37,320 nucleotides of DNA from a virus. The notes beneath the pieces are model-generated. The model was given only the letters and a program-made list of their open reading frames with translations, did not search any database and had not been told where the DNA came from. The translations under genes and the position numbers were made by a program. The DNA is taken from IMG/VR virus record IMGVR_UViG_3300011116_000371, positions 1 through 37,320 of that record; one strand, written 5' to 3'. Positions 5,537-18,082 of the stretch are shown piece by piece (within the stretch, counting starts at the first letter, position 1; each line of letters opens with the position of its first letter).

Positions 5537-5715
5537 GAGTTCCTTGCAATCATCCAATCTAACGCATCATGCAAAATACTAAATTTAGGTGATTGTTCGG
5601 TTTTGTTCTTCCATTGGAATACCATCTTGTCAGCAACATCCCAAGTATTTTCTTCATGGTTCCACTTTGCCGAACGCTCATGGTCTGTAATCAACTCCAT
5701 ACCCATTTTATTCAT
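5533..5715 (-). CDS. Hypothetical protein (60 aa)
   Basis: The ATG at 5715 overlaps the stop of the upstream gene as ATGAATAA. The 60-residue product is polar, with two Trp-rich stretches (AKWNHEENTWDVADKMVFQW) and a short helical end (FSILHDALDWMIARN). No motif is recognised. It is one of a run of short coupled genes expressed leftward from the promoter near 5937. Confidence 0.66.
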   Translation of the reverse strand: MNKMGMELITDHERSAKWNHEENTWDVADKMVFQWKNKTEQSPKFSILHDALDWMIARNS

Positions 5716-5878
5716 CAATCTCTTCCGCTACTGCTCTTCCAACAAGTCTATTAACCTTATCAGCAATCGCAGTAGATAAATCGTCCATGACCTTGTCATA
5801 GCCATAATCACCAATTAAATCAACAAAATCCATCATAATAAAGTGATACCGAGCTTCTTCGTTGTGGCTTTGATTCAT
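5708..5878 (-). CDS. Hypothetical helical protein (56 aa)
   Basis: This is the first gene downstream of the leftward promoter at 5909-5937. Its 56 residues are mostly helical and acidic (NEEARYHFIMMDFVDLIGDYGYDKVMDDL, then ADKVNRLVGRAVAEEIDE). No family is recognised. The ribosome site is poor (GGGGTATTT before ATG). The stop overlaps the next ATG by 8 bases, and this supports both starts. Confidence 0.65.
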   Translation of the reverse strand: MNQSHNEEARYHFIMMDFVDLIGDYGYDKVMDDLSTAIADKVNRLVGRAVAEEIDE

Positions 5879-5908
5879 AAATACCCCGTTAGTTAAAAGA
5901 CACTACCA

Positions 5909-5937
5909 ATTAAAAGACATAACCACCCAAAAGTCAA
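5909..5937 (-). promoter_or_regulatory. Leftward sigma-70 promoter
   Basis: On the minus strand this reads TTGACT (5937-5932), 17 bases, then TTTAAT (5914-5909): five of six matches at each box with ideal spacing. It would start transcription about 25 bases before the ATG at 5878 and drive the primase-polymerase block. It lies back to back with the rightward promoter at 5961-5989. Confidence 0.65.
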
Positions 5938-5960
5938 TACCTAAGACAAAAATAAACTAC

Positions 5961-5989
5961 TTGACAACAATTCAAAAGTGCAGTATAAT
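5961..5989 (+). promoter_or_regulatory. Rightward perfect-consensus sigma-70 promoter, antisense to the early genes
   Basis: TTGACA (5961-5966), exactly 17 bases, then TATAAT (5984-5989) is a full consensus sigma-70 promoter. It points right, while every gene from 6121 to 9342 is on the other strand, so its transcript would run antisense into them. ATAGACTAT repeats lie just downstream (6009 and 6071), as operators might. No rightward gene and no convincing terminator follows before 6120. Confidence 0.7.
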
Positions 5990-6008
5990 AACTATATAGG
6001 TAAACAAC

Positions 6009-6079
6009 ATAGACTATCGTTGATTGTTTCTTTATGTTAATTGTTAGTAGTCTATATTCACAGTTACGACATAGACTAT
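6009..6079. repeat. ATAGACTAT repeats downstream of the antisense promoter
   Basis: ATAGACTAT, an odd-length dyad (ATAG-A-CTAT), occurs at 6009-6017 and 6071-6079, with an 8/9 inverted match at 6047-6055. A further exact copy is at 9684-9692 in the divergent region. The first copy is embedded in ACAACATAGACTAT (6004-6017). The 242-base gap 5879-6120 holds the two promoters and these repeats, and no gene that I can support. Confidence 0.5.
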
Positions 6080-6120
6080 ATTAACTATAACGATACCTAT
6101 ATTACCCGCAAGCGAGTGCA

Positions 6121-6381
6121 TTATCGATTGTCCCAATCAGTCCAATAGTCTTCAGGGTCTTCCGCATCTAAACCACCATCAATATACCCGTTATCATCAA
6201 CTAACGACTCTGATAGCGCAGTATCCGACTCAGCCATAAGGTCTTGTCTTACCTGTATTGGTATATGCGCCTCAATCGTCTTTAGACAATCGCTACATAT
6301 CTCTAAATACTTTCGAGTGATAGCGTGTTTAATCGTTGCCTCATAGTCTGTCAACATGGTATTACAACATTGGCATCGCAT
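6121..6381 (-). CDS. Small zinc-finger protein with acidic C-terminus (86 aa)
   Basis: Starting at ATG 6381 (GGAG ten bases upstream; the track-length extension would begin inside the previous gene), the product opens MRCQCCN, then LTDYEATIKHAITRKYLEICSDCLK. Two C-x2-C pairs (about residues 3-6 and 29-32) should bind one zinc. Proteins that open with MRCQxCN and a following 'TDxEAT' are widespread in T7-like and other lytic phages, with no known function. Here the tail (about 50-86) is very acidic (DAEDPEDYWTDWDN). This may be a regulator or a host-protein inhibitor; that is inference. Confidence 0.75.
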   Translation of the reverse strand: MRCQCCNTMLTDYEATIKHAITRKYLEICSDCLKTIEAHIPIQVRQDLMAESDTALSESLVDDNGYIDGGLDAEDPEDYWTDWDNR

Positions 6382-6382
6382 C

Positions 6383-6640
6383 TTAAAAATCTCCTTCAGC
6401 AATATTCTGAGCAATATCTAACCAATAAGCCTTAACCTTGTCTATAACCTCAGCAGGTGCGCTATCGGGTTCATAATCCTCGCTTAACTCCAATTGGCTT
6501 AGTGCCTCAGCCCAATTATCAGAATCAGCCCAATAGCACTGCCCATCACTAGCCAATAAACAATCCACCGATTCGTTAAAAGCATCTTCGTCAAAATCCC
6601 CGTCTTCTGGTTCGTAATATCGATTATTGTTGTAATTCAT
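6383..6640 (-). CDS. Very acidic small protein (85 aa)
   Basis: About 23 of 85 residues are Asp or Glu and only three are Arg or Lys, so the net charge is near -20. Trp and Tyr are also common. Such composition is seen in DNA-mimic proteins that block restriction or host DNA-binding proteins (Ocr-like), but sequence alone cannot prove mimicry. The ATG follows a GAGAGG ribosome site. The stop is one base before the ATG of the zinc-finger gene. Its place early in the leftward arm, near ardC, fits a take-over or anti-defence role. Confidence 0.7.
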   Translation of the reverse strand: MNYNNNRYYEPEDGDFDEDAFNESVDCLLASDGQCYWADSDNWAEALSQLELSEDYEPDSAPAEVIDKVKAYWLDIAQNIAEGDF

Positions 6641-6731
6641 AAAAAGCCTCTCTATTCAATAAAAACATAGTAGCATAGGGCTACCCCTTACCTCACCTAA
6701 GAAAACCCCGTATACGCCGTTTTAGAGCGTT

Positions 6732-6833
6732 TTAGAGGTATTCCCAAGTATAACATAAAGCCACTCCAATAAGGTGATAGACAACATAGGCTAAAATTAG
6801 GTAAAAACATAACCACCAATATAGTGTTTTCAT
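6732..6833 (-). CDS. Single-span membrane peptide (33 aa)
   Basis: This 33-residue peptide is almost wholly hydrophobic: MKTLYWWLCFYLILAYVVY, then HLIGVALCYTWEYL. Its ATG overlaps the stop of the upstream gene as ATGA, which supports real translation by coupling. A single inner-membrane helix is likely, with the Lys at position 2 inside. Function is unknown; tiny early membrane peptides of phages can inhibit host membrane proteins or block superinfection. Confidence 0.6.
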   Translation of the reverse strand: MKTLYWWLCFYLILAYVVYHLIGVALCYTWEYL

Positions 6834-7000
6834 TGTTTATATGCCTCTCTAGCATTGTGAATATTCATCCATAACTTAAATAGCTCATCATCAGATAAGC
6901 GCCAAAGGTGCTGAAAATATTGCTCTTTTGACCTATTGACGGGTTTATCTAAGTAACCTAAGTCAGTCCATATTTGGTATTGCATTTCATAGCGTGTCAT
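6830..7000 (-). CDS. Hypothetical small protein (56 aa)
   Basis: I chose ATG 7000, six bases after a GAGG ribosome site; an in-frame ATG at 7012 is also possible. The 56 residues are aromatic and polar (TRYEMQYQIWTDLGYLDKP; SKEQYFQHLWRLSDDELFKLW), probably two helices. The 'LSDDELFKLW' helix with preceding Trp resembles small host-takeover proteins only in general style. The start overlaps the upstream gene by 14 bases, and the stop overlaps the 33-residue membrane peptide gene. Confidence 0.65.
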   Translation of the reverse strand: MTRYEMQYQIWTDLGYLDKPVNRSKEQYFQHLWRLSDDELFKLWMNIHNAREAYKQ

Positions 7001-7235
7001 ATTTAGCCTCATAAAGTGTATTAAACCATTGTTTAGCCGTTTTATCATCTACTAACCAAACAACATCATGCCCATGTAATCGTGCGTTGTGTCGTGCCTC
7101 GTATTCGGTTTTATATTCACCAATAAGCCATAATTCCCCTTTAACATCAACGCAATACCACTTATTAGCGGGTAAACCTCGATTAAATTCACAATCAGCT
7201 AAACCGTATTTTCCAATCTCTTGTAATAAACTCAT
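6987..7235 (-). CDS. Hypothetical protein (82 aa)
   Basis: The ATG follows a GAGGG ribosome site (7242-7246). The 82-residue product has a beta-rich centre (KWYCVDVKGELWLIGEYKTEYEARHNARLHGHDVVWLVDD), with the order strand-turn-strand-helix-strand, then a helical end. This could be a small SH3- or dsRBD-like fold, but I do not recognise it. No membrane or metal motif is seen. It lies among short early genes and is followed by an overlapping coupled gene. Confidence 0.68.
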   Translation of the reverse strand: MSLLQEIGKYGLADCEFNRGLPANKWYCVDVKGELWLIGEYKTEYEARHNARLHGHDVVWLVDDKTAKQWFNTLYEAKYDTL

Positions 7236-7247
7236 AATTAAACCCTC

Positions 7248-7328
7248 CTATAAATAGAATACAATAGAGATTACAGCAGCAATGCAAGTATATAAGCATA
7301 CACCGGTTAATAGCAATGATTTAATCAT
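7248..7328 (-). CDS. Possible 26-residue membrane peptide
   Basis: The ATG at 7328 overlaps the upstream stop as ATGATTAA. The 26-residue product is a single hydrophobic helix (MIKSLLLTGVCLYTCIAAVI, then SIVFYL). The peptide is very short, so the call depends on the overlap, on similar coupling at 6732-6833 and 2380-2529, and on the lack of another gene in 7236-7320. A random open frame cannot be excluded. Confidence 0.42.
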   Translation of the reverse strand: MIKSLLLTGVCLYTCIAAVISIVFYL

Positions 7329-7542
7329 GGTTTAAACCTTCCGCAATATCATAACCGGATATACTCTTAATCCAGCCGTACCCCAGCCACTGAGCGCCGT
7401 TATATGACCGCTCAATATCTATCCGGTTTTCTCCCCAGCTAATTAAAATCATACTAGCATTCTGTTTAATACCTTCGCTTACTTGTTTTTTAACTTGTAC
7501 AATGCTCGGTTTTCTACCGGTAAAATCATATTCATATAACAT
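7321..7542 (-). CDS. Hypothetical protein (73 aa)
   Basis: The start is set by a very strong AGGAGG ribosome site eight bases before ATG 7542; a longer reading from 7578 would run through that site. The 73-residue product has a strand-helix-strand-strand order (YEYDFTG; SIVQVKKQVSEGIKQNASMILISWGENRIDIE) and ends in GWIKSISGYDIAEGLNHD. It is soluble, with no recognised motif. The strong ribosome site suggests high early expression. Confidence 0.72.
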   Translation of the reverse strand: MLYEYDFTGRKPSIVQVKKQVSEGIKQNASMILISWGENRIDIERSYNGAQWLGYGWIKSISGYDIAEGLNHD

Positions 7543-7569
7543 GGCAATACCTCCTAGTAATAGGTTAAC

Positions 7570-7613
7570 GATTAGCAAAATACTAATCCCATAAGCGCCT
7601 AAGATAAGCGCCT
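7570..7613. repeat. Small inverted and direct repeats in a leader region
   Basis: In the gap between two leftward genes, GATTAG (7570-7575) and CTAATC (7583-7588) form a six-base stem with a seven-base loop. ATAAGCGCCT then occurs twice in direct orientation (7591-7600 and 7604-7613). They could be an RNA hairpin or an operator just downstream of the GP88-like gene. There is no T-run, so I do not call a terminator. Confidence 0.35.
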
Positions 7614-7625
7614 ATAGGTTAATAC

Positions 7626-8387
7626 TTAAACCGGTTTAATGTCAATAACGAAGCCGCTGTAATCCTTCTTAGCTTTACCCTTAGCATACAATGCGACAAT
7701 GGAGCGCTTAGGGTCTAAATGCCGGATATCTGTATTGTCACCGTCAACACAAGGCAAACCCAAATAATGCGACGGGATTTTATCCTGTAACCGGAAAACT
7801 ACAGCTAATCTCATTCCCGAATCAATAGCTTGTTTTGCGTATTTTTGATAAGCAGATACGCCACTATAGCTAAATGTTAAATCGTAATTCTTAGGTAATT
7901 CTTTTCTATTTGGTATTTTCGTATAATCGTAAAATTGTACTTCGGGGAATAAATCGAAAATTGTAATCGTGCGGATTTTGCCATACATAAATTCATAATC
8001 AAAAGTAACATTTTCCCATTTAATATCACTTGTACCATTTAAGCGCACTAAGGGAATAAACCCGTCCCGCTTAGCTTGCTTAATTAGTTTATTAATATCC
8101 TTAACTAATTCAAGCATAAAGTGCTGGCGCTCAGTGTAGAATTGCTTAGTCTTACGAATTCTAGCTTGCTGTATTGGATTAGTACTTTCACCGGTTTTAA
8201 TAATCCCTGCCCGTCCCGCTGTATTTAAGCAAGCATGAGCGCATTGTGCTATATCAGCCATGGCGCAAGTATTAAACCCGCTTAATTTATATGGCGCTAA
8301 GTATAGGACGCCGGTAAGAAAACCCTCTTTTTGACCTTTAACGGTTTTCGCATTGCTATCAACATTTAATAATTTATAGTTACTCAT
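7626..8387 (-). CDS. GP88-like protein (mycobacteriophage L5 gp88 type), function unknown
   Basis: This is a 253-residue protein that starts at ATG 8387 behind a GGAGGG ribosome site. It has a Cys-rich part near the N-terminus (TCAMADIAQCAHACLNTAGRAG, about 41-62), then TNPIQQARIRKTKQFYTERQHFM, and a central RLNGTSDIKWE. The LNTAGR and QQARIRKT stretches are the hallmark of the GP88-like family of phages and plasmids, to my recollection, whose activity is unknown. Conserved Cys and polar residues suggest a metal or catalytic site. It is the second gene of the leftward arm, behind ardC, which points to an early role, perhaps against host defence. Confidence 0.75.
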   Translation of the reverse strand: MSNYKLLNVDSNAKTVKGQKEGFLTGVLYLAPYKLSGFNTCAMADIAQCAHACLNTAGRAGIIKTGESTNPIQQARIRKTKQFYTERQHFMLELVKDINKLIKQAKRDGFIPLVRLNGTSDIKWENVTFDYEFMYGKIRTITIFDLFPEVQFYDYTKIPNRKELPKNYDLTFSYSGVSAYQKYAKQAIDSGMRLAVVFRLQDKIPSHYLGLPCVDGDNTDIRHLDPKRSIVALYAKGKAKKDYSGFVIDIKPV

Positions 8388-8426
8388 TTTTAAACCCTCC
8401 AATTTTAGGATACTGAAAATAGGATA

Positions 8427-8457
8427 ATCCTAGTACCCAATACAGCGATACTAGGAT
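8427..8457. repeat. Perfect 9-bp inverted repeat between ardC and the GP88-like gene
   Basis: ATCCTAGTA (8427-8435) and TACTAGGAT (8449-8457) are exact reverse complements around a 13-base loop. AGGATA also recurs at 8407 and 8421. The repeat is the main content of the 79 bases between the two genes. It may be an mRNA hairpin that changes the dose of the downstream gene, or a repressor site. No T-run follows on the minus strand. Confidence 0.5.
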
Positions 8458-8466
8458 AAACCCTTA

Positions 8467-9342
8467 TTATGCCGCTTCTAGCTCTTCTGATACTTCGGTG
8501 ACTACTTCACCGGCAAACCCAGCCAAATAATCAGCGGCTTTTTGTGCTAATGCCGCCGCTTTAAATATTGCTTTATTATCGTTTTTAAGTACCCGTAACC
8601 ATGAAGCAATATAGCTAGAATGACGCAATTCACCGGCGATACTAAACCTAGCGCATAAAAATGCGGCGCTTAACTCGGCTATTAGCTCTTCTGCGGCGTA
8701 TGCTTCATTACCAAATCTACCGCTCAAATCTCTATCGAGGCGGGATTTGTGACCGCTCCAGTGCGCTAGCTCATGCAATAGCGTTGCATAATAGCTTGCT
8801 TCACTATTAAATTGTAACTTATGCGGCATAGCAACATAATCTTGTGACGGTGAATAGTACGCTCTATCGCCGCCAAATTGTAATTGTACGCCGCTCTTAA
8901 CCGTAAGCGCTTCAATGCTGGCAACATCATTAAAAACCTTTGGCGCTGGCATTGTTGGCGCTTCAAACCCGGTAACCTGCTCGGCATTGTAAACCCTAAA
9001 ATATCTCATTACTTTATATACTTGCTGCTTTTCGTCGCTATCCTGCTCTTTTTTCGCCGCTTTTACCGGTGAATAGAAAACAATGCATTGATACTTATTA
9101 AATTGGTCCTTATTGATTGTGGCTCCAATACTTAGCCATTGCTTATAAGTACCCCAATACGGTGATTTGAACCCGCTCATGCCGAGAATGATTGTATTAA
9201 TGCCGCTATAGGTTTTCTTAGTAATAACATTGCAATCGGCGCCGGCTTCGCCGCTCCAATTCTTAACCCAGCTGGGTAACTTGCCACTTTCTAGCTCGGC
9301 AATGATTTTATCGGTGACCTGCTGATATATTAATGCGCTCAT
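8467..9342 (-). CDS. ardC: ArdC-type antirestriction protein (ssDNA-binding plus zincin domain)
   Basis: This 291-residue protein has the ArdC N-terminal ssDNA-binding domain (YQQVTDKIIAELESGKLPSW; SGINTIILGM; PYWGTYKQWLSIGA; VFYSPV) and a C-terminal zinc metallopeptidase-like domain with HELAHWSGH (His190, Glu191, His194) and a downstream AAEELIAELSAAF that should give the third ligand. ArdC proteins protect incoming DNA of plasmids and phages from host restriction. AGGAG lies eight bases before the ATG. It is the first gene after the leftward promoter at 9386-9414, fitting a protein needed at once after DNA entry. Family identity is firm; the activity here is inferred. Confidence 0.93.
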   Translation of the reverse strand: MSALIYQQVTDKIIAELESGKLPSWVKNWSGEAGADCNVITKKTYSGINTIILGMSGFKSPYWGTYKQWLSIGATINKDQFNKYQCIVFYSPVKAAKKEQDSDEKQQVYKVMRYFRVYNAEQVTGFEAPTMPAPKVFNDVASIEALTVKSGVQLQFGGDRAYYSPSQDYVAMPHKLQFNSEASYYATLLHELAHWSGHKSRLDRDLSGRFGNEAYAAEELIAELSAAFLCARFSIAGELRHSSYIASWLRVLKNDNKAIFKAAALAQKAADYLAGFAGEVVTEVSEELEAA

Positions 9343-9501: not shown

Positions 9502-9621
9502 TGCACTAAATAGGTGCATCATCGCCCCATATACATTCTCTATCGCCTACACAGGTCAATAGTTTTTCTCTATCGCTATGAAGTGAGCGCTTACTTACAG
9601 CACTGCACTATATTGGTGCAT
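9502..9621. repeat. Two copies of an 18-base dyad, TGCACTAWATWGGTGCAT
   Basis: TGCACTAAATAGGTGCAT (9502-9519) and TGCACTATATTGGTGCAT (9604-9621) differ at only two positions, and each has TGCAC/GGTGCA half sites. They lie 102 bases apart. Two copies of a long dyad in a divergent control region may be binding sites of an initiator or repressor. Confidence 0.7.
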
Positions 9622-9643
9622 AGCCGTGTAAGTGAGTGCTTAC
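9581..9643. repeat. Two copies of palindrome AAGTGAGYGCTTAC
   Basis: AAGTGAGCGCTTAC (9581-9594) and AAGTGAGTGCTTAC (9630-9643) are 49 bases apart, interleaved with the 18-base dyads. A third copy lies at 14010-14023, over the start point of another promoter. The second copy extends to GTAAG...CTTAC arms. The shape is like a dimeric repressor operator; the binding protein is unknown, and none of the phage genes looks like one. Confidence 0.7.
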
Positions 9644-9665
9644 TTCGCTAAAGTGTTGTATAAAA

Positions 9666-9697
9666 ACAACATAGGGGGGAGGGATAGACTATGTTGT
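9666..9697. repeat. Perfect hairpin ACAACATAG...CTATGTTGT with G-rich loop
   Basis: ACAACATAG (9666-9674) pairs exactly with CTATGTTGT (9689-9697) around a 14-base, G-rich loop. The same 9-mer also occurs at 6004-6012 and 6781-6789, and inverted at 9935-9943. The hairpin contains one ATAGACTAT copy (9684-9692). It may be a DNA cruciform, an operator or an RNA hairpin. Confidence 0.6.
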
Positions 9698-9763
9698 GTA
9701 ATGTTGGCGGAGCCACCATAGCATACAAAAAAGTAAAATAGGACTATGGTAATTGCTAAAAAA

Positions 9764-9831
9764 GGGACATAGTCAATGATGTTGTATGTCATTGATTAAT
9801 AAAGAAGAATAAAATAGGGACAGAGTCAGTG
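9764..9831. repeat. Imperfect 15-base direct repeat and a 7-base inverted repeat
   Basis: GGGACATAGTCAATG (9764-9778) recurs as GGGACAGAGTCAGTG (9817-9831), 13 of 15 identical and 53 bases apart. Between them TCAATGA (9773-9779) and TCATTGA (9789-9795) form an inverted repeat with a nine-base loop. Confidence 0.5.
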
Positions 9832-9971
9832 GAAATGCTCACTCCGTAGGAGGTCAATGTTGTCCCCAGCGGAGACCTATATCGCCAGTGCAGACCCGCT
9901 GAATCTGCTCAGCCGTAGGTGATAATGCAGGTATCTATGTTGTTGTTTTATAAGAGGTGTAAAAATAATGC

Positions 9972-10000
9972 TTGACAAAATAACAAAAATGTGCTAAAAT
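9972..10000 (+). promoter_or_regulatory. Rightward extended -10 promoter for the virion arm
   Basis: TTGACA (9972-9977), 17 bases, then TAAAAT (9995-10000), preceded by TGC as an extended -10. It matches the promoters at 13967 and 18054 closely, including a shared ATGTGC before the -10. The transcript would have a leader of about 215 bases before the small terminase ATG at 10221. Confidence 0.8.
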
Positions 10001-10220
10001 CGCCTTACAAGTTCAAGCAACACACTATAAAGAATCGTGTAAGCCCTGCAAGCAGTGAATTATTATAGCACACTAAACCACCTCTAAACCACTTGGTGAA
10101 AAACAATTACCAAGAAACCCCCTGATAGCGAACTACAGCCTAACGGCAGCGCACTATAGTACTAATAGGGCTTTGAGTTTTTTCTTTTCTTTGTCTTTCC
10201 TTAAAGGATAAAAAGGCGTT

Positions 10221-13966: not shown

Positions 13967-13995
13967 TTGACTTTTTAGCAAAGTTGTGGTAAAAT
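13967..13995 (+). promoter_or_regulatory. Rightward extended -10 promoter after the portal gene
   Basis: TTGACT (13967-13972), 17 bases, TAAAAT (13990-13995) with TGG before it as an extended -10. The start would be near 14002, right at the palindrome 14007-14024. It should boost expression of the scaffold and capsid genes. Confidence 0.78.
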
Positions 13996-18053: not shown

Positions 18054-18082
18054 TTGACAAAACTTTAAAAATGTGCTACACT
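18054..18082 (+). promoter_or_regulatory. Rightward extended -10 promoter before the S74 fibre gene
   Basis: TTGACA (18054-18059), 17 bases, then TACACT (18077-18082) with TGC before it. AAAATGTGCTA is shared with the promoter at 9972. The -10 is only 15 bases upstream of the ATG at 18097, so the transcript would have a very short or no leader. It gives this second fibre its own expression. Confidence 0.65.

Follow-up and report, generated by a model that had tools for sequence, protein, structure and literature searches.

The OOP RNA of phage lambda and the sar RNA of phage P22 are antisense RNAs: short, untranslated and made against a neighbouring operon. In the layout of phage T7, a promoter adjoins AT-rich DNA near the replication genes. 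The primary origin of T7 is transcription-initiated according to work cited in PMC5997990, and T7 helicase and T7 polymerase can displace a stalled Escherichia coli RNA polymerase and extend its transcript as a primer (PMC5997990). The T4 origins oriF and oriG, of about 100 bp, consist of a promoter and, downstream of it, an AT-rich unwinding element; leading-strand synthesis is primed by the transcript (PMC3016281). In phi29, the early/late switch governed by p4 involves related sites at an early and a late promoter (PMC3100819).

The locus described here was found in a 37,320-nt stretch of viral DNA, analysed as a whole and referred to below as the window. It comprises the following features, with coordinates counted from the first nucleotide of the window.

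5879 to 6120, no strand: noncoding gap of 242 bp containing the whole unit, from the start of the leftward gene 5708-5878 to the stop of the convergent gene 6121-6381.
5909 to 5937, minus strand: back-to-back leftward promoter, TTGACT-N17-TTTAAT, 10/12 consensus positions, facing the replication operon.
5938 to 5960, no strand: AT-rich stretch separating the two -35 hexamers, with GACAAAAATAAA conserved in most relatives.
5961 to 5989, plus strand: orphan rightward promoter, perfect sigma70-type, with a predicted transcription start at about 5996, some 7 nt past the -10 hexamer; kept in 56/62 distinct relatives.
5984 to 6083, no strand: weakest 100-bp duplex in the window by nearest-neighbour energy, a candidate unwinding element.
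6004 to 6039, plus strand: conserved element near the predicted 5' end of the transcript, ACAACATAGACTATCGTTGATTGTTTCTTTATGTTA; reverse-complement copies of it occur in the late control region.
6066 to 6079, plus strand: second copy in direct orientation, ACGACATAGACTAT; most relatives have a comparable CATAGACTATATAGG motif.
6121 to 6381, minus strand: first convergent gene, encoding a small protein with CxCC/CxxC cysteines and an acidic C-terminus; it would be antisense to any extended rightward RNA.

The promoter sequence, TTGACAACAATTCAAAAGTGCAGTATAAT, reads TTGACA-ACAATTCAAAAGTGCAG-TATAAT, that is, the sigma70 -35 and -10 hexamers without a mismatch and with a spacer of 17 nt, within the 16- to 18-nt range of sigma70 promoters. 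It is the sole 12/12 match to TTGACA-N17-TATAAT in the 37,320 nt, and dinucleotide shuffles gave an expectation of 0.010 perfect 17-spaced matches per window (0.027 for spacers of 16 to 18 nt). Sites with two or fewer mismatches were no more common than chance over the whole window (7 seen, 6.4 expected), and 5961-5989 alone therefore stands out. The preliminary description of this DNA had called the site the strongest promoter by sequence and had noted that it reads rightward where the genes up to 9342 run leftward; both statements were borne out, and the same opposition was seen in every relative examined.

Relatives were gathered through the helicase protein, and the promoter was not used as a criterion. 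The count covered 62 distinct loci in which the sequence upstream of the helicase extends for 1.7 kb or more; a few contigs may have been entered twice under different trims. In 56 of the 62, the same gap holds an 11/12 or 12/12 promoter that points away from the helicase (48 of them perfect), against 3 on the opposite strand and 5 in shuffled sequence of the same stretch, counts that are not fully independent because some loci are near relatives of one another. The six listed misses include L132, which is the contig of L037, a locus that does carry the promoter. In L033 the downstream element is retained and the -35 hexamer is lost. The spacer occurs in close relatives in two quite different versions (e.g., ACAATTCAAAAGTGCAG and ACATTTACAAAATTGAG) between unchanged hexamers. 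A chance match at 5961-5989 was ruled out by the retention of the site, which is almost certainly a functional, conserved promoter. A DNA-level search of a phage collection for cultured relatives gave no match; in the nearest isolates, the helicase is only about 50% identical and the genes around it are unidirectional. Helicase relatives were also searched for in genome contigs for host identification, and none were found.

The noncoding gap has the same layout in the relatives. To its left, a T7-type primase-helicase and a family A DNA polymerase are encoded among the leftward genes; what had been described as a primase-polymerase block is not one primase-polymerase. The first gene of this leftward block, 5708-5878, begins 82 bp left of the -35 hexamer of the rightward promoter. 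The leftward promoter at 5909-5937 was confirmed as a 10/12 site back to back with the rightward one; in most relatives its -35 hexamer (TTGACT or TTGACA) is kept, and its -10 hexamer is weak and variable. The intervening stretch, 5938-5960, is a possible shared UP element. To the right of the gap, the genes up to 9342 are all leftward, and among them the GP88-like and ardC genes previously suggested for this arm were both confirmed by Pfam. The protein encoded by 6121-6381 gave a weak match only, to PHROG 10364 (unknown function).

Downstream of the promoter there is little to express. In the window and 18 relatives, 19 genomes in all, leftward open reading frames fill the 3.6 kb on the right, with few or no rightward ones, and the nearest leftward gene ends about 120 to 170 nt from the -35 hexamer. 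Scanning 1.5 kb for intrinsic terminators yielded none in 17 of the 19 genomes, the window included, and one each in L017 and L045, about 500 to 850 nt downstream of the promoter. With only leftward genes downstream and no consistent terminator, the site is an orphan promoter, predicted to give an untranslated RNA. A hidden rightward gene was rejected: no rightward frame of at least 70 amino acids occurs within 3.6 kb in the window, and few occur in relatives. The small ATG frame at 6034-6084 was likewise rejected as the product, being absent from other lineages. Since no rightward gene is available, a short noncoding or antisense RNA, as first proposed, would be the expected product. The promoter thus probably starts an RNA that helps to initiate DNA copying or times gene expression, and does not serve to make a protein.

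The first ~35 nt of this predicted RNA, (A)ACAACATAGACTATCnTTnGATTGTTnnTTnATGT, are conserved across most of the group, with distant members keeping parts only. The conservation is of sequence and not of structure. Folding z scores in the window were -1.7 to -1.9, and RNAalifold returned 0 kcal/mol without a consensus fold, so that a structured RNA was rejected; covariation in an ACAT/ATGT stem was not clearly above slid controls, and the conserved fold and compensatory changes of a structured small RNA family were not found. A known RNA family was also rejected, the single Rfam match (E 3.1) being far under the gathering score and taken as chance.

Sequences related to this initial element recur in a late control region some 3.7 kb away, where three features were annotated.

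9666 to 9697, no strand: dyad ACAACATAG-N14-CTATGTTGT in the late control region, containing the same 9-mer as the predicted orphan RNA.
9935 to 9943, minus strand: copy of ACAACATAG just upstream of the putative late promoter.
9972 to 10000, plus strand: putative late promoter, TTGACA-N17-TAAAAT, preceding the terminase and portal genes; the term late is taken from this gene content.

Five copies of the 9-mer ACAACATAG are present in the window, where 0.44 would be expected. Four lie at 6004 and within 9666-9943; the copy at 6781 falls within a putative short coding frame and was left out as a regulatory site. A 45-nt query from the start region was compared with the 930 bp surrounding the putative late promoter. 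In 15 of 22 genomes its reverse-complement match there was better than in every control window taken from the same genome, which held much less often for the same-orientation match. In the window's lineage, the matching copies lie upstream of the late promoter, and predicted pairing with the late leader did not exceed that of shuffled sequence (z about -1.5 to +1.3). Lineages B1 and B2 have the match within the late 5' leader itself, at +148 to +168 counted from the first position of the late -35 hexamer, and up to 13 contiguous pairs plus 5 can form; predicted duplex z scores were -4.0 to -5.1 in L042, L062 and L064 and about -3.2 in L024, L031 and L036. Complementarity to the putative target RNA was above chance in B1 and B2 but not in the window's lineage. 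UUGUUUC/GAAACAA and UUGUUGUU/AACAAC versions change together in the B1 and B2 lineages, and a cognate-pair permutation test, in which relatedness was ignored, gave p = 0.00075. The shared sites are read as real, and would represent either DNA sites for one protein or RNA-RNA pairing.

Several further elements were observed in and beyond this region. Between the dyad arms ACAACATAG and CTATGTTGT at 9666-9697 lies a G-rich run, ACATAGGGGGGAGGGA, whose ACATAGGGGGG part is kept in nearly all aligned relatives, whereas the arms are found mainly in the window's lineage. A conserved noncoding element upstream of the late promoter, at approximately 9836-9905, shows compensatory changes in relatives (CTCC/GGAG, CTGC/GCAG and CCTCT/AGAGG, and GCGG/CCGC to GCAG/CTGC), with both-side changes in 3 of 8 predicted pairs and no Rfam match; it looks like an undescribed structured RNA. 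The late leader is long (10005-10200, ~200 nt) and contains hairpins, and some relatives have different hairpins there. The rightward promoter-like sites at 9972-10000, 13967-13995 and 18054-18082 have spacers ending in TGTGC or TGTGG before the -10 hexamer, as if they formed one class of later promoters. A 20-nt inverted repeat, GAAGTGAGCGCTTACTTACA (9580-9599 and 9627-9646, 85% complementary), lies in the divergent noncoding region and is a candidate for another origin or an operator.

For the orphan promoter, we tentatively propose a transcription-primed origin, made up of an early host-sigma70 promoter and an AT-rich unwinding element, with the shared sites tying in the late genes. The promoter is directly followed by an AT-rich, easily unwound segment: AT content is 71% in 5990-6110 against 58% in the window, and the promoter segment was among the three weakest duplexes in 39 of 41 loci of at least 8 kb. 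The phage encodes a T7-type helicase-primase, a family A polymerase and a Gp2.5-like single-stranded DNA-binding protein, which may be able to extend an RNA primer, and a search of the record for a phage RNA polymerase found none, although control genomes likewise gave no match; a T7-type replisome for which no T7-type RNA polymerase was found makes a host-promoter origin plausible. Host sigma70 RNA polymerase would initiate early in infection at about 5996, at the head of the replication operon, producing a rightward RNA that is not translated and melting the AT-rich DNA at 5984-6083, and the RNA or its R-loop would prime leading-strand synthesis by the T7-type helicase and family A polymerase. 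Because the first ~35 nt hold the late-region sites, a phage factor probably couples the orphan promoter to the late genes; any interference with the early genes that converge on it would arise as a by-product or serve as a second role. Several observations weigh against this proposal. Easy melting is to be expected of an AT-rich promoter between genes, origin or not, and priming from an R-loop needs no conserved RNA sequence. GC skew has no inflection at 6.0 kb; it changes at about 9.4 kb, together with gene direction. The noncoding region at 9.3 to 10.2 kb is another candidate origin, and no iterons were recognised. That replication initiation is the main role of 5961-5989 is accordingly put forward as a possibility that falls somewhat short of probable.

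The orientation of the promoter raises the alternative, favoured in the preliminary description, of convergent or antisense control, in which the RNA would read into 6121-9342, cut early expression through collision or pairing, and keep leftward read-through out of the replication operon. The opposed orientation and the lack of a rightward gene hold in 19 of the 19 genomes inspected, the convergent gene ends close to the -35 hexamer, and a long antisense RNA is possible because most of these genomes lack a terminator within the 1.5 kb scanned. Pure interference, however, does not need the conserved first ~35 nt, and it leaves the late-region matches and the downstream duplex minimum unexplained; we consider it rather unlikely as the principal function. 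The late-region matches would be accounted for by a trans-acting small RNA that times the late genes by pairing, through its 5' end, with complementary sites in rightward RNA from the late control region or the late leader. The reverse-complement matches that beat all control windows, the strong predicted duplexes in the late 5' leader of two lineages and the paired sequence versions that change together there all point in this direction. Against it, the window's own lineage pairs no better than shuffled sequence and has its copies upstream of the late promoter, where a rightward RNA is not assured; L035 and L037 fail to match, a conserved RNA fold is absent, and the same data are accounted for by a DNA-binding protein that has a site at each place. 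Such pairing is unlikely to be the function of the RNA, and it is equally doubtful that the locus specifies a new phage small RNA, conserved in an uncultured group, that links the start of replication to late expression.

The protein-binding explanation can stand by itself if, in the manner of phi29 p4, one phage regulator serves both promoters, repressing the orphan one and acting at the late one, with the RNA being functionless. In most relatives the motif coincides with the predicted start site, and it is found again close to the late promoter in one orientation or the other; the excess of ACAACATAG copies fits an operator. This explanation gives no reason for keeping a perfect promoter that serves no gene, no regulator gene was identified, and the distance to the late promoter varies by lineage; a role as operator only is very unlikely. 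The origin, antisense, trans-acting RNA and operator roles are compatible and not mutually exclusive.

A promoter that is perfect in dozens of phages and has nothing to express points to a function missed by protein-based annotation. If the locus is an origin, it would be a host-driven primary origin for phages that have a T7-type replisome and apparently lack a T7-type RNA polymerase, and the element, being short and defined, would lend itself to testing. Should it instead specify a regulatory RNA, that RNA would represent a conserved, unnamed phage family invisible to gene annotation.

Among the described systems, lambda OOP and P22 sar resemble the locus in that its predicted untranslated RNA opposes a neighbouring operon; unlike them, it has no nearby intrinsic terminator in the window and no Rfam match, and its RNA matches the late control region and not the overlapped gene alone. 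As with phi29 p4, related sites lie at a putative early and a putative late promoter, but here ~3.7 kb separates them, a p4-like gene was not identified, and the early promoter serves no gene. T4 oriF and oriG are like the locus in their size of about 100 bp, in the order of promoter and AT-rich unwinding segment and in the transcript as the proposed primer (PMC3016281); the differences are the full sigma70 -35 and -10 hexamers, which need no MotA box, the T7-type replisome, the conserved transcript start, and an origin role that is putative here. The T7 primary origin is similar in its promoter beside AT-rich DNA and in the T7-type helicase-primase and family A polymerase that would act there, but T7 uses its own RNA polymerase, whereas the promoter described here is a host consensus.
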